This document shows, piece by piece, positions 5,742 to 27,074 of a stretch of 64,000 nucleotides of DNA. The notes under the pieces are model-generated. The model worked only from the letters and a program-made list of their open reading frames with translations. It was not told the DNA's origin and searched no databases. The position numbers and the translations under genes were made by a program. This DNA comes from Conexibacter arvalis. Its GTDB lineage: Bacteria; Actinomycetota; Thermoleophilia; Solirubrobacterales; Solirubrobacteraceae. Each line of letters starts with the position of its first letter. Within the stretch, counting starts at the first letter, position 1. The stretch covers positions 1,156,182 to 1,220,181 of the forward strand of contig NZ_JACHNU010000001.1 in NCBI RefSeq assembly GCF_014199525.1, read 5' to 3'.

Positions 5742-7222
5742 CGCGCGCGCTGATCGCCCAGCTGCGTCGCATCCCCGCGGCCGCCCGCGCGTGCGCGCTG
5801 ATCGCGCTTCTCAACGCCGTCGTCTGGGCCGTCGTCGTGCCGCCGTTCCAGGTGCCGGACGAGATCACCCACTTCGGCTACGCGCAGTACCTGGCGGAGA
5901 CGGGTGAGCCGCCACCGGCGAAGGAGGGCACCGCACAGTACTCCGACGAGCAGCAGCTCACGCTCGAGCGCCTCGGCTTCTTCGGTGTGATCGGCAGAGC
6001 GGACCAGCGCGGGATCTGGACGACGCCTGACGATCGGGCGCTGCGAGACGCGCTCGCGTCGCATCCTAGCCGGCAGGGCGAGGGCGGGCCGAGCTCGGCG
6101 ACGAACCAGCCGCCGCTTTACTACGCACTGACCGCTGCCGCGTACTGGCTCTCGCCTGGCCACGACATCCTCACGCGGTTGTATGCCATGCGGCTGGTCT
6201 CCGCGCTGTTGGCAGCGCTGACCGTCCTCTGCGTGTTCCTGTTCGTGCGCGAGCTGCTCCCGGGGACGCCGTGGGCGTGGACCGTCGGTGCGTTGGCTGT
6301 CGCGTTCCAGCCGACGTTCATGTTCATCGCCGCCGGCGTGCACGGCGACAACCTGCTGTTCTTCGCCTCGGCGGCCGTGCTGGCTGCGCTGGCGCGCGCG
6401 TTCCGCCGCGGGCTGACACGGCGCCGCGCCGTCGCGATCGCGCTGGCGACCGTCGTCGGAGCGCTCGGCAAGCTGACCTTCCTCGCGTTCCTGCCCGGCA
6501 TCGCGCTCGCATTCCTGCTGCTGCTGTGGCGGGCGGCGCCCGACCGCCGGCGTGACGCGCTGGCGAGCACCGGCATCGCGGCGGCGATCGTCGCCGTACC
6601 GGTCGTCCTCTACACGGTGATCAACACGGGTGTATGGGATCGCGGCGGTGGCGCGACTGGCGGCGTCGCCGTCAACTCGTCGCGCGCGATTTCGATCAAG
6701 GAGCGGATCGGCTACACCTGGCAGCTGTTCCTGCCGCGTGTGCCGGGCATGCACGACCAGTTCGACTACGTCCCGCTGTGGGAGACGTGGTTCAAGGGCT
6801 TCATCGGTCGCTTCGGATGGCTCGACTACGCGTTCCCGGAGTGGGTCTACGGCGCCGCGCGGGCGATCTTCGCAGCGGTCGGCGGGCTCGCGCTCGTCGA
6901 GTTGGTGCGTCGGATTCGCGCGATCGGGCTCGCCCGCCTCGACTGGCGCCTCCCGTTCGGCGCAGTGGTGGCGGCGATGGCGATCGGCCTCGCGGTCGCG
7001 ATCGGCTGGCAGGGGATCGGCTATCGGGCCGACACCGGCTTCACGTTCGAGCAGGCGCGCTACCTGCTGCCACTGCTCGCACCCTACGGTCTCATCGTCG
7101 CGCTTGCCGCGCGCGGCGCGGGCCGCCGCTGGGGGCCGGCCGTCGGCGCGCTGCTGGTCGTGGTGGCGATGACGCACGGGCTGTTCGCCCAGCTGCTCAC
7201 CATTTCCCGCTACTACGGATAG
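5738..7222 (+). CDS. DUF2142-type polytopic membrane protein, probable GT-C glycosyltransferase
   Basis: A 494-residue protein with about 10-12 hydrophobic segments. After helix 1 it carries VPPFQVPDEITHFGYAQYL, matching the P-x-D-E-x-x-H-F loop of DUF2142/GT39-like proteins; the acidic loop residues there are the usual GT-C catalytic candidates. A large periplasmic loop follows (residues about 55-125, with SSATNQPPLYYALT, another family hallmark). The start is GTG at 5738 overlapping the previous stop; nothing upstream in frame is convincing. It probably transfers a sugar from the polyprenyl-phosphate donor made by the gene at 3920 onto an extracytoplasmic glycan. Donor and acceptor are inferred, not shown. 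Confidence 0.8.
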   Translation: MTRALIAQLRRIPAAARACALIALLNAVVWAVVVPPFQVPDEITHFGYAQYLAETGEPPPAKEGTAQYSDEQQLTLERLGFFGVIGRADQRGIWTTPDDRALRDALASHPSRQGEGGPSSATNQPPLYYALTAAAYWLSPGHDILTRLYAMRLVSALLAALTVLCVFLFVRELLPGTPWAWTVGALAVAFQPTFMFIAAGVHGDNLLFFASAAVLAALARAFRRGLTRRRAVAIALATVVGALGKLTFLAFLPGIALAFLLLLWRAAPDRRRDALASTGIAAAIVAVPVVLYTVINTGVWDRGGGATGGVAVNSSRAISIKERIGYTWQLFLPRVPGMHDQFDYVPLWETWFKGFIGRFGWLDYAFPEWVYGAARAIFAAVGGLALVELVRRIRAIGLARLDWRLPFGAVVAAMAIGLAVAIGWQGIGYRADTGFTFEQARYLLPLLAPYGLIVALAARGAGRRWGPAVGALLVVVAMTHGLFAQLLTISRYYG

Positions 7223-7227
7223 GCGGC

Positions 7228-7256
7228 GGCGCGACGGACTGATCGTGCGTCGCGCC
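7228..7256. terminator. Inverted repeat between convergent genes
   Basis: Perfect 9-bp arms GGCGCGACG (7228-7236) and CGTCGCGCC (7248-7256) with an 11-base loop lie in the 41-bp gap between the stops of the convergent genes ending at 7222 and 7264. There is no T-run, as is common for terminators of high-GC actinobacteria. It probably acts in both directions. Confidence 0.5.
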
Positions 7257-7263
7257 CCAGCCG

Positions 7264-9387
7264 TCAGCCGACGCCGAGCGCCGCCTCCCGCTCGGCGAGC
7301 GCGTGCCGCAGACCGAGCTCCACCTCATCGGTCGCGCGGTCCCACGAGTGGGCGGCGGCGAACTCGATTCCGGCGCGCGCGCGGCGCTCCCACAGCTCAC
7401 GGTCGTCGAGCAGCCGTTCGATTCCGGAGGCGAGCGCGTGCGGCTCCAGGTCGGCGAGTTCGAGCGCGCCGTCGTCGCCGAAGATCGACTCGGCGCTGAC
7501 GCCGGACAGCTCGACGCACGGCAGCCCGCACGCGAGCATCTCCTTCGGCATCAGCGAGAAGTTCGTCAGCGACAGGCACAGACCGACCGTCGCTTCGGCG
7601 AACAGCGTCGCCAGCTGCGGCTGGCTGAGGACGCCGAGGTGCTCGTACGGAAAGGCCGTCCGCGGCGGAACGTCGTCGCCGAACAGCACGATCCGCACGT
7701 CGGGTCGCCGGCGGTGCAGCTCCTCGAGCGCCATCAGGCCGATCGGGACGGCTCGCCGCGGGGTCGAGTGGCGTCCGTAGTAGACGACGGTGTCGCGCCG
7801 GCGCGGGACGTCAAGCGGCCGGTAGATCGCATGGTCGACGCCGTAGTTGAAGGCGTCGGCCGAGGCGCCGTAGATGTCGGTCAGGAGGTCGCGCAGCCAC
7901 GGGCTGCCGGCGATGCAATGCATGCCGTAGCGGTAGGTGTCGGCCGCCAAGCGCGATTCGGTCGAGGTCGCGAAGAACTCCGGCTCGTGGTCGTTGACGA
8001 GATAGGCGCGAGCGCGGCAGCCTTCGAGCAGCAGCGTGGGATGGACGGTCTGCCAGCCGGTCGCGACGACGATGTCCGCGCCGTGCCAGTCGTCGAAGCC
8101 GTAGTGGACGGGACCGTCGAACGGCGCGAACCAGTCGTTGATCTGTCTGCGCAGGACGCCCGGCCAGAAATCGCTCATCTCGCCGAACAGGTCACTGACC
8201 CAGATGCTGCAGACATGGCCGCGGCGCTCGAGACGCGACATCACCTGGAAGAGGATGTTGTGGCCGCCGCTGCCACGCTGCCACGGTGGAACCACCATCG
8301 CTATCCGCAACTGTTCGCGCTCGGCGGATCCAGGCACCGGATCGAGCAGCGCCGCGGGTCCGTCGCGCAGCACGCGCGCTGCCGCCTCGTAATCCTCGTG
8401 CGCGCGCGAGGCGTCGACATGCCGCGGCGCCGGCAACGCGGCCGGCGCCCTGGGCGGTCTCGACGGCGTGCGGGCGTCGTCGCGTCGCTCCAGGGAGAGC
8501 CGCCGCCGCAGCGGTTTGGGAACCCGCTCCGCGCGCGAGCCCAGCGCCGAGAAGACTCGCCGCCCGCTGTGATGGACGGTCGACCGAGCCGCCCAGCGGG
8601 CCCGCTCGGCGATCGGCAGCCCCTCACGGGCCATCCAGCGCAGGTCTGCGGTCGTCTGCGATCCCGTCCAGCGCAGGACCTCCAAGGGCCGGAACCTCTC
8701 GACATGCCCGAGCGTCTCGCGAAGGCCGCGGTACTCGTCGAAGTAGCGGCGCATGAACTCCAACGCACCGTAGTCGTGCGCATGGAGCACGGCGGCGTCC
8801 GGCACGTAGGCCTTCAGCCAGCCGGCGCTGAGCGCGTCGCGTCCGAACGCCTGGTCCTCGGAATACGGCAGGTCGCGGAAGCGAACCTCCTCCCAGCATG
8901 CTCTGCGATAGCAGGCGTTGACGTTGGAGAGGAAGGTCGGGTCGCCAGCGCGCTGGATCGCCGGGCCGCCGTCTGGGCCGGCGAAGCCGGCGAAGAACTC
9001 CGTCAGCTCGCGCGCGATCATCGGGCTGGTCTCCGGCCGCGGCAGGTGCGGGCCGTAGGCGACGCCGATGCGTTCGTCGAGTGCCAGTGCCGCGCGGAAC
9101 GCGTCGAGGGCGCCCGGGGCCGGTGTCGCGTCCTGGGTCAGGAACCAGATCAGCTCGCCGCTCGCCCGCTCGGCGCCGAGGTTGCGTGTGCGGCCGTGTC
9201 CGAACTCCGCGGGTGGGATCTCCAGCGGCTCGACGCCGGCAGCCCGCGCGATCTCCAGCGAGCGGTCGCTCGAGCCGGAGTCGATCACGATCAGCTCGTC
9301 TACGCCCTCGCGCCGCAGCGCGTCGAGCAGCTCAGCGAGGTAACGCTCCCCGTCCTTGACGGGGATGACTGCGGTGACGCGGCTCAC
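7264..9387 (-). CDS. Two-domain glycosyltransferase, GT2 fused to GT4
   Basis: A 707-residue fusion. Residues about 1-270 are a GT2 domain: VTAVIPVKDGERYLAELLDA, then VIDSGSSDRSLEIA, a QDATP DxD-like site, and NVNACYRRACWEEV. A linker of about 70 residues rich in Arg, Pro and Ala follows. Residues about 345-707 are a GT4-like domain (IAMVVPPWQRGSGGHN, TVVYYGRHSTPRRA, MPKEMLACGLPCVELSG), related to proteins of the rhamnan/WsaF kind. The start is GTG at 9387, overlapping the TGA of the coiled-coil gene (GTGA). The frame is open much further upstream, but that part is antisense to the exporter genes. It lies downstream of Wzt, Wzm and the coiled-coil gene, so it probably builds the chain that the ABC exporter moves. 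Confidence 0.88.
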   Translation of the reverse strand: MSRVTAVIPVKDGERYLAELLDALRREGVDELIVIDSGSSDRSLEIARAAGVEPLEIPPAEFGHGRTRNLGAERASGELIWFLTQDATPAPGALDAFRAALALDERIGVAYGPHLPRPETSPMIARELTEFFAGFAGPDGGPAIQRAGDPTFLSNVNACYRRACWEEVRFRDLPYSEDQAFGRDALSAGWLKAYVPDAAVLHAHDYGALEFMRRYFDEYRGLRETLGHVERFRPLEVLRWTGSQTTADLRWMAREGLPIAERARWAARSTVHHSGRRVFSALGSRAERVPKPLRRRLSLERRDDARTPSRPPRAPAALPAPRHVDASRAHEDYEAAARVLRDGPAALLDPVPGSAEREQLRIAMVVPPWQRGSGGHNILFQVMSRLERRGHVCSIWVSDLFGEMSDFWPGVLRRQINDWFAPFDGPVHYGFDDWHGADIVVATGWQTVHPTLLLEGCRARAYLVNDHEPEFFATSTESRLAADTYRYGMHCIAGSPWLRDLLTDIYGASADAFNYGVDHAIYRPLDVPRRRDTVVYYGRHSTPRRAVPIGLMALEELHRRRPDVRIVLFGDDVPPRTAFPYEHLGVLSQPQLATLFAEATVGLCLSLTNFSLMPKEMLACGLPCVELSGVSAESIFGDDGALELADLEPHALASGIERLLDDRELWERRARAGIEFAAAHSWDRATDEVELGLRHALAEREAALGVG

Positions 9388-25619: not shown

Positions 25620-25820
25620 CTACGGCCGTGCGGCGCCGTCCGCGGAAGCCGGACGGGTTCGACGCGATCGGACAACGGCGTCGTCTCTGATGCGCAGACC
25701 GAGGGCCTCCCGCTCCCGCTGCTCGTCGCGGATTGCCTGCACCTTGAGGCGCCAGCCGTCGCCACGTGCACGGCGCTCGGTTGCCGAAGTGCGTCGGGGG
25801 ATATCCCATGCTTCCGCCAT
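25620..25820 (-). CDS. Small charged protein downstream of the proteasome-like gene
   Basis: A 66-residue hydrophilic protein beginning MAEAWDIPRRTSATERRARG and rich in Arg, Glu and Asp (RDEQREREALGLRIRDD); I do not recognise it. Support: it starts 23 bases after the stop of the gene at 25844 on the same strand, and a GGGAG ribosome-binding site lies about 9 bases before the ATG. Base composition is lower in GC than the flanks, as for its neighbour. It may be an accessory partner of that gene. Against: it is short and no family is known to me. Confidence 0.45.
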   Translation of the reverse strand: MAEAWDIPRRTSATERRARGDGWRLKVQAIRDEQREREALGLRIRDDAVVRSRRTRPASADGAARP

Positions 25821-25843: not shown

Positions 25844-27025
25844 TCAAGAGGCACTCAGGTTCGGACGCTTCGCCCACCGAAGCGGTCCGCCAGGCGCCAG
25901 GACGGCAACGGAGATCGTGCCGCCGACGGTTTCGAGTGTTCCCCGCATTCGTTGCCACAACGCCGTGATCGAGACCAAGCTCTCGGCGATCTCGCAGAGA
26001 TCGGGAGGCGGCATGACGTCGAGGGTGTCGAGGATCGGCAACGTTCGTTGCTCAAGCCAGCGACGACGAGCGTCGCCCAGCGCCTCGTCGATCTTGTCAG
26101 CGTCCAAGCCGACCGACTCGAGTCGGTCGTAGAACGAAGCCAGCAGAGCGGGGTGGACCCCATTCATCATCGTGCTCACACCGTCTGCTTGCGCGAACGC
26201 CTTGACCAGCGCGTTACGCGGGCCGTGGCAGCCGCCTGTTGCGATCTCCCAGTAGCGGAGTCCTGGAATGCCCACGCCGTCGAACGTGAACTCGACGTAT
26301 CTCGGCCAGAACGCGCCATCCGGGAAGCTGACCAGGACCAGCCCGCCTGCCGTCGGGGAACCGACGTCGTTGGGTGTGCGACGGGTCAGGGACAGCAACG
26401 CCACATCCTCGATCGCACGAGAGGTCGACGCGTCGACCGGCACGTCGGAGAGGACGTCTCGCCGGACATCGGCGATCAATCGCCGATGTCTCCTGTGGAG
26501 TGCGCTCTCGGCTGCGGCGTCGAGCCCGGGAAGTCGCTCGGACGCCCTCCACGCCCGTCGCTCGATCGCGACGATCTCTCTCAGCTGCTCGGCTACCCCA
26601 GCCGGCACTGGCTCGTCCGACTCTGCTTCCATCGATTCCTGCATGAAGCGGTCCTGCGCTTCGTGCAGAAGCGTCGTGACGAGGCCGGCCGTTCGTGCCC
26701 GGCGCAGTTCGGGCCCTGCCGTCGCGATCCGCTCGGCGAGGCGTGCGTCGAGGAAAGAGAGGAGATGCTCTGCCTGCTTCACGATGTCTTCGTGCGCGTC
26801 GCCACCGAACTTGTGGCGATACTCGCTGAGGAGCGTTCCCCACGGGACGTCGATGAGCGTCGCGAGACCGTAGACCAGCGCTGCGGTCGGCTCATTGTCC
26901 GAAAGCGGGTGGATCTTCTCGACGCCGGTGTAGACCTTCTGGCCGGCGGGACCCGAGATCGTGACCGCGCTATCGGCAGCAAGGACAGCGCAAGCAGAAG
27001 TCATGATCGCGACCTGTGCCGTCAT
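25844..27025 (-). CDS. Proteasome-fold (Ntn hydrolase-like) protein of unknown function
   Basis: A 393-residue protein. From the ATG at 27025 it begins MTAQVAIMTSACAVLAADSA. If Met is removed, Thr becomes residue 1 and AADS puts Asp at mature position 17, the same spacing as T1 and D17 of HslV and 20S beta subunits. The VEKIHPL segment aligns with K33 (3-residue insertion). Next come AALVYGLATLIDVPWGTLLS and EYRHKFGG, which I recall from an uncharacterised bacterial family. LVLVSFPDGAFWPRYVEF looks like a later proteasome strand. The remaining C-terminal part is helical and unassigned. An in-frame ATG at 27064 would bury the Thr, so 27025 is preferred. GC is visibly lower than the flanks, suggesting transfer. 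It follows iolB on the same strand but is unrelated. Confidence 0.7.
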   Translation of the reverse strand: MTAQVAIMTSACAVLAADSAVTISGPAGQKVYTGVEKIHPLSDNEPTAALVYGLATLIDVPWGTLLSEYRHKFGGDAHEDIVKQAEHLLSFLDARLAERIATAGPELRRARTAGLVTTLLHEAQDRFMQESMEAESDEPVPAGVAEQLREIVAIERRAWRASERLPGLDAAAESALHRRHRRLIADVRRDVLSDVPVDASTSRAIEDVALLSLTRRTPNDVGSPTAGGLVLVSFPDGAFWPRYVEFTFDGVGIPGLRYWEIATGGCHGPRNALVKAFAQADGVSTMMNGVHPALLASFYDRLESVGLDADKIDEALGDARRRWLEQRTLPILDTLDVMPPPDLCEIAESLVSITALWQRMRGTLETVGGTISVAVLAPGGPLRWAKRPNLSAS

Positions 27026-27074
27026 CCAGGCGAACCTATCGACCTCCTGGGAGCGGCGTCGCATACAACAACAC

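Follow-up and report, generated by a model that had tools for sequence, protein, structure and literature searches.

How does a bacterium in which no other proteasome gene is recognizable come to encode a protein with a proteasome-like active site, and what would such an enzyme do? In the window, a 64,000-nucleotide stretch of the Conexibacter arvalis chromosome, the ORF at 25844-27025 (-) encodes a proteasome-like N-terminal threonine hydrolase of 393 residues that begins MTAQVAIMTSACAVLAADSAVT. An earlier note, made from the sequence alone, read a Thr directly after Met from the ATG at 27025, an Asp at mature position 17 and a Lys equivalent to K33, and suggested an orphan, possibly self-processing enzyme. 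Another in-frame ATG, at 27064, would lengthen the protein by 13 residues; we took 27025 as the start because a Met-Thr start aligns in all 54 homologue clusters.

A conserved N-terminal threonine site

We counted conservation over 54 clusters at 70% identity, the window protein included. Alignments of relatives, used to scan IMG/VR, yielded 125 confirmed loci in one scan and 174 in another, of which 80 were fetched each time; scans with single distant homologues gave no additional viral loci. The three residues named by the earlier note show no variation across the clusters (54/54 each), far beyond chance. Thr2 (codon 27020-27022, -) is the predicted catalytic nucleophile, corresponding to proteasome T1 once Met1 is removed. 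Asp18 (26972-26974, -) corresponds to D17, and Lys37 (26915-26917, -) corresponds to K33 past a 3-residue insertion. An hhalign comparison with actinobacterial PrcB is weak (P = 0.023) and gives the same T1/D17/K33 register. The full set of invariant positions is M1, T2, A16, D18, S19, K37, P61, V230, G289, V367, G368, G369, V373 and W384. G53, the likely equivalent of the oxyanion-hole Gly47, is Gly in 41 of the 54 clusters and Asn, Ser, Gln or Asp in the others. Near the C terminus, an ETVGG motif (residues 365-369; 25919-25933, -) lies close to the D166-S169-G region of 20S beta subunits, with E365 retained as Glu in 51/54 clusters and the Val and both Gly in all. There the family sequence VGGPIDVAVI aligns with SGGMIDVAVI of the Thermoplasma beta subunit, which matches an eight-homologue profile at only E = 0.06. 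Judged from sequence, the conserved Thr/Asp/Lys site argues for catalysis.

The proposed self-processing has become unlikely because no propeptide is visible ahead of Thr2: the homologues begin Met-Thr, leaving no residues to cleave. Methionine aminopeptidase is established to remove Met1 before small second residues such as Thr, and in this family it would expose Thr1 without autocleavage. A survey of proteasome homologues reported no propeptides outside HslV and beta subunits (PMC8665760).

A predicted proteasome fold with two insertions

An AlphaFold2 model of the window protein, built from 39 sequences (mean pLDDT 87, pTM 0.84), adopts the alpha-beta-beta-alpha proteasome fold. The best PDB matches of the model in Foldseek are 20S beta subunits and Anbu, and VIA-align superposes it on these structures over about 190 residues with Z scores of about 15-16 (maximum 15.9) and an rmsd of 3-4 Å, so that residue 2 of the model falls on the first residue of the beta subunits and of Anbu. 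The earlier note had described a further 250-300 residues that no proteasome subunit has, as though they formed a tail. In the model, proteasome elements instead span the whole chain, and DSSP assigns the extra sequence to two helical insertions within one fold, with no C-terminal addition. Helices H1 and H2 (residues 62-73 and 81-95) are predicted to be present; the first insertion follows them (residues ~97-214; 26384-26737, -), the chain rejoins the fold near residue 227, the second insertion lies between H3 and H4 (residues ~309-337; 26015-26101, -), and the protein finishes with the last strands of the fold. Together, the model, the fold searches and the conservation across 54 clusters bear out the suggestion of a separate family of proteasome-fold N-terminal threonine hydrolases, apart from HslV, Anbu and 20S subunits. 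Neither of the outcomes that the earlier note had named as refuting was observed: the predicted structure has the sandwich fold, and the homologues conserve the Thr behind Met. The family shares the core fold and Thr-Asp-Lys site with these enzymes but is twice as long, carries two helical insertions, was seen with no gene for a partner unfoldase and scores below threshold for PF00227. HslV is a compact subunit without insertions that works with HslU, whereas the window protein has 393 residues and two insertions, and no HslU was seen among the annotated neighbours at the homologue loci examined.

Relation to described proteasome homologues

Searched alone, the window protein has no match in Pfam, NCBIfam or the PDB (phmmer), and its relatives score below the Pfam cut-off for PF00227, as other divergent proteasome-like proteins are known to do. 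It does match PHROG 5990 (E = 3e-46), a phage protein family with no assigned function that phage and plasmid homologues match over their full length; the window copy is among its divergent members. Searches with tblastn recovered relatives in phages and plasmids, mostly full-length at 22-29% identity, and the family's hosts include the window's own phylum, Pseudomonadota, Bacillota and Bacteroidota in addition to phages. Elsewhere in the window's phylum we observed a more divergent relative (locus L130, 8716-9954, -; MTSQIVVINQCGIAIASDTLTT...), which keeps the D17 position within a different surrounding motif and may represent another PMI-type group. An N-terminal fragment of a family member (L131, 10001-10309) runs antisense to an annotated hypothetical gene in Rhizobium sp. 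WYJ-E13; most likely the copy has decayed or the strand is misannotated.

A 2021 survey of proteasome homologues by Fuchs, Alva and Lupas defined PMI-4, a 'proteasome homolog with multiple insertions' (representative HDY66466.1; KEGG OC.661505-661513; PMC8665760). Both PMI-3 and PMI-4 carry insertions after H1/H2 and between H3 and H4, and PMI-4 alone is marked as occurring in phages and is abundant, with 501 sequences (PMC8665760). The window protein is probably a PMI-4 member, matched by the published description of architecture and distribution, because its insertions fit PMI-3/PMI-4 and only PMI-4 is both phage-marked and abundant. The likeness extends to the proteasome fold, the Thr1/Asp17/Lys33 site, the missing propeptide and the wide bacterial spread that includes phages. 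The label 'orphan' therefore does not hold for a protein with homologues in many phyla, a PHROG 5990 match, a fit to PMI-4 and, as described below, a small partner gene. The survey assigned no function to the new families and reported no informative gene context (PMC8665760); the small partner ORF and the terminator-bounded cassette are added by the present analysis.

A foreign gene in Conexibacter arvalis

The window copy is chromosomal and lies outside any visible prophage. It stands by itself, with the end of the iol operon on one side and a conserved membrane-protein gene on the other. The earlier note had remarked on a lower-GC patch here, and the composition bears this out: GC is 65-67% in the patch versus 72-79% around it, and GC3 is 0.78 in the gene versus 0.97 in adjoining iolB. 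No homologue of the window gene was found in 100 relatives, and the content of the site differs among them. In one relative, iolB and the membrane-protein gene are separated by an aldehyde dehydrogenase gene and another ORF, and in two others an ftsH-like sequence follows the membrane-protein gene. By its low GC3, its absence from 100 relatives and the differing site content, the window copy is a horizontally acquired, foreign insertion. The earlier note reported no proteasome gene nearby, and this extends to the whole genome: we found no PF00227 match anywhere in it, so the window gene is its only recognizable proteasome relative. Several residues that are near-invariant in the family (for example G233, G235, D372 and RKHYF) are missing from this copy; the catalytic residues are kept.

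These observations bear on the suggestion that the protein is a stand-alone host peptidase or amidohydrolase with a housekeeping role. A chromosomal position without a visible prophage would suit such an enzyme, but absence from 100 near relatives, foreign composition and a sporadic, mobile distribution elsewhere make it very unlikely.

Sporadic cargo of mobile elements

Satellites, prophages and plasmids carry the family, an aspect that the earlier note had missed. In streptococci, the satellites Javan468 and Javan198 carry the enzyme gene as their last large gene, and in the temperate phage Javan85 it is the final gene, behind the lysin. Among 5426 complete E. coli genomes the family occurs in 9, always with the same, almost unchanged 1.46 kb. 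In the two E. coli prophages examined closely, the gene lies antisense between the gene for antiterminator Q and a DNA methylase gene. The same flanks are common in other E. coli, where they enclose nothing, one other gene or a different antisense pair; such variable content between common flanks marks the site as an accessory (moron) slot. The different pair is a two-gene cargo in E. coli MLI104K1 (L218, 3168-4705, +). Prophages, streptococcal phage satellites and plasmids carry the family as sporadic cargo.

The enzyme could instead be a protease for virion maturation or another step of phage morphogenesis, and in a Porphyromonas phage the gene does sit among structural genes, an atypical position for cargo. 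We consider this reading very improbable: satellites carry the gene as their last large one, in E. coli prophages it lies on the strand opposite to the late genes, and copies occur on plasmids and on chromosomes outside phages.

Rhizobial plasmids carry the family close to multiubiquitin/E1 operons and to a gene resembling PD-T4-9_A. Multiubiquitin and ThiF/E1 operons adjoin the family gene at three such loci (L123, 7937-11423; L125, 10699-14210; L011, 4733-6799); the Rhizobium operons also contain DUF6527 and ClpP genes, and Mesorhizobium has the same kind of ubiquitin-like genes in a different arrangement. At L123, three genes separate the enzyme from the ubiquitin-like operon (6662-7859, -), including one for an HTH protein and one similar to PD-T4-9_A (E = 2e-7), a known anti-phage system component. 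We considered and set aside a specific link to ubiquitin operons: the association spans at least two plasmid lineages (a Rhizobium cluster and Mesorhizobium), but a multiubiquitin-like gene is present on 169 plasmids and the family on only 10, so shared cargo or defence islands are the simpler reading. Seven homologues gave no significant match to the defence models of PADLOC 2.0.0. Hotspots of P2 and P4 hold antiviral systems (PMC9122126), which makes defence a natural guess for the family.

A small ORF behind the enzyme gene

A small ORF recurs directly behind the enzyme gene at the homologue loci, mostly overlapping it or at most 26 nt away. Gene-neighbourhood statistics over non-redundant phage loci place an ATG-started ORF of 38-72 amino acids in this position in 33 of 36 cases, compared with 30 of 265 other long ORFs of the same loci (Fisher p = 4e-23). 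An intrinsic terminator lies within 70 nt past the small ORF at 27 of 44 loci versus 23 of 880 random positions, and that of the E. coli cassette has a 12-bp stem. The coupled small ORF and terminator indicate a self-contained two-gene cassette. In related pairs, synonymous differences in the small ORFs far exceed non-synonymous ones, and these ORFs evolve faster than the enzyme gene; because pN lies below pS, we regard them as real proteins. They are Lys-rich (14%) and usually 45-70 amino acids long. In E. coli prophages, where a 49-amino-acid ORF accompanies the enzyme WP_000123148.1, the partner ORF (L101, 13307-13456, and the same position in L100) is unannotated in RefSeq.

In the window, a 66-amino-acid ORF (25620-25820, -) begins 23 nt past the stop of the main gene, a position like that in homologues, and by this position we tentatively designate it the partner. 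Its coding signal is weak (GC1/2/3 of 0.78/0.63/0.72), and no T-tract terminator was found at it.

The small proteins share no common motif, the best candidate, W..xFNP, being limited to 7 of 48. Two further features were rejected as not clearly above shuffled sequences: a [FWY].[LIVM]P motif (6 of 48 versus 1.2 in shuffles) and a C-terminal amphipathic helix (best helical moment 0.53 versus 0.47). When a read-through fusion of the L056 enzyme and its small ORF was folded, the small part reached a pLDDT of only 27-54 and did not dock.

The partner could itself be a substrate. Connectase, a proteasome homologue, acts as a ligase, and insertions change specificity (PMC8665760); the window family likewise carries inserted helices. 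By analogy, the small protein might be bound by the enzyme as an acyl intermediate and then passed to a target, so that the small ORF would encode a tag rather than a regulator, a role that a dedicated Lys-rich partner would suit. We find this doubtful. Connectase lacks H1/H2 and has its insertion between S3 and S4, whereas the window model has H1 and H2 and places its insertions elsewhere, and W..xFNP falls far short of a motif common to all partners.

A small, fast-evolving, coupled partner on mobile elements would also be expected of an addiction pair, in which the small protein inhibits a toxic protease and the pair stabilizes its element, as in toxin-antitoxin systems, with no role in defence. 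Against this, the gene order is the reverse of the usual antitoxin-first arrangement and no partner is seen in two copies, making such a pair quite unlikely. One of the two, L055, has no qualifying small ORF behind the enzyme. At the other (L129, 7029-9568, -), from a different bacterium of the same phylum as the window, a dGTPase-like gene (PADLOC dGTPase, E = 2e-91) follows the homologue within 2 nt, with a NERD-UvrD gene nearby; this may be a different partner that replaces the small ORF.

A proposed role in phage conflict

Genomic location and sporadic spread point to a conflict role among phages, satellites and hosts, and such a role is probably a better account of the family than ordinary protein recycling. 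The most likely reading is a threonine protease or ligase under the control of its small partner, acting in conflict between phages and hosts or among phages. The enzyme would cleave a specific protein, or ligate as connectase does; the Lys-rich, fast-evolving partner would control it as substrate, inhibitor or adaptor; and the cassette would serve its mobile element against competing phages, through defence or superinfection control. We place about even confidence in the combined proposal that this is a horizontally acquired proteasome-like family, carried as a two-gene cassette by phages, satellites and plasmids, whose partner-controlled enzyme acts in phage-related conflict. That the cassette amounts to an undescribed phage-conflict system spread across bacterial phyla, in which a dedicated small protein arms or aims a proteasome-like threonine enzyme, we advance more tentatively, at somewhat less than even confidence. 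If so, it would be, to our knowledge, the first relative of the proteasome to act in conflict between phages or between phage and host.

The fold itself is not new, because the family is most probably the published PMI-4. No functional study of the family was found in the open-licence literature searched, and in that literature the cassette, the partner gene and the cargo biology appear undescribed. A compact, conserved cassette with a small partner offers a testable entry point into the proteasome-homologue families described without function in 2021. Should the enzyme prove to act in defence or superinfection, the known tools of phage conflict would come to include relatives of the proteasome; should it instead ligate a dedicated tag, the pair would be a new system of protein modification and might serve as a reagent.
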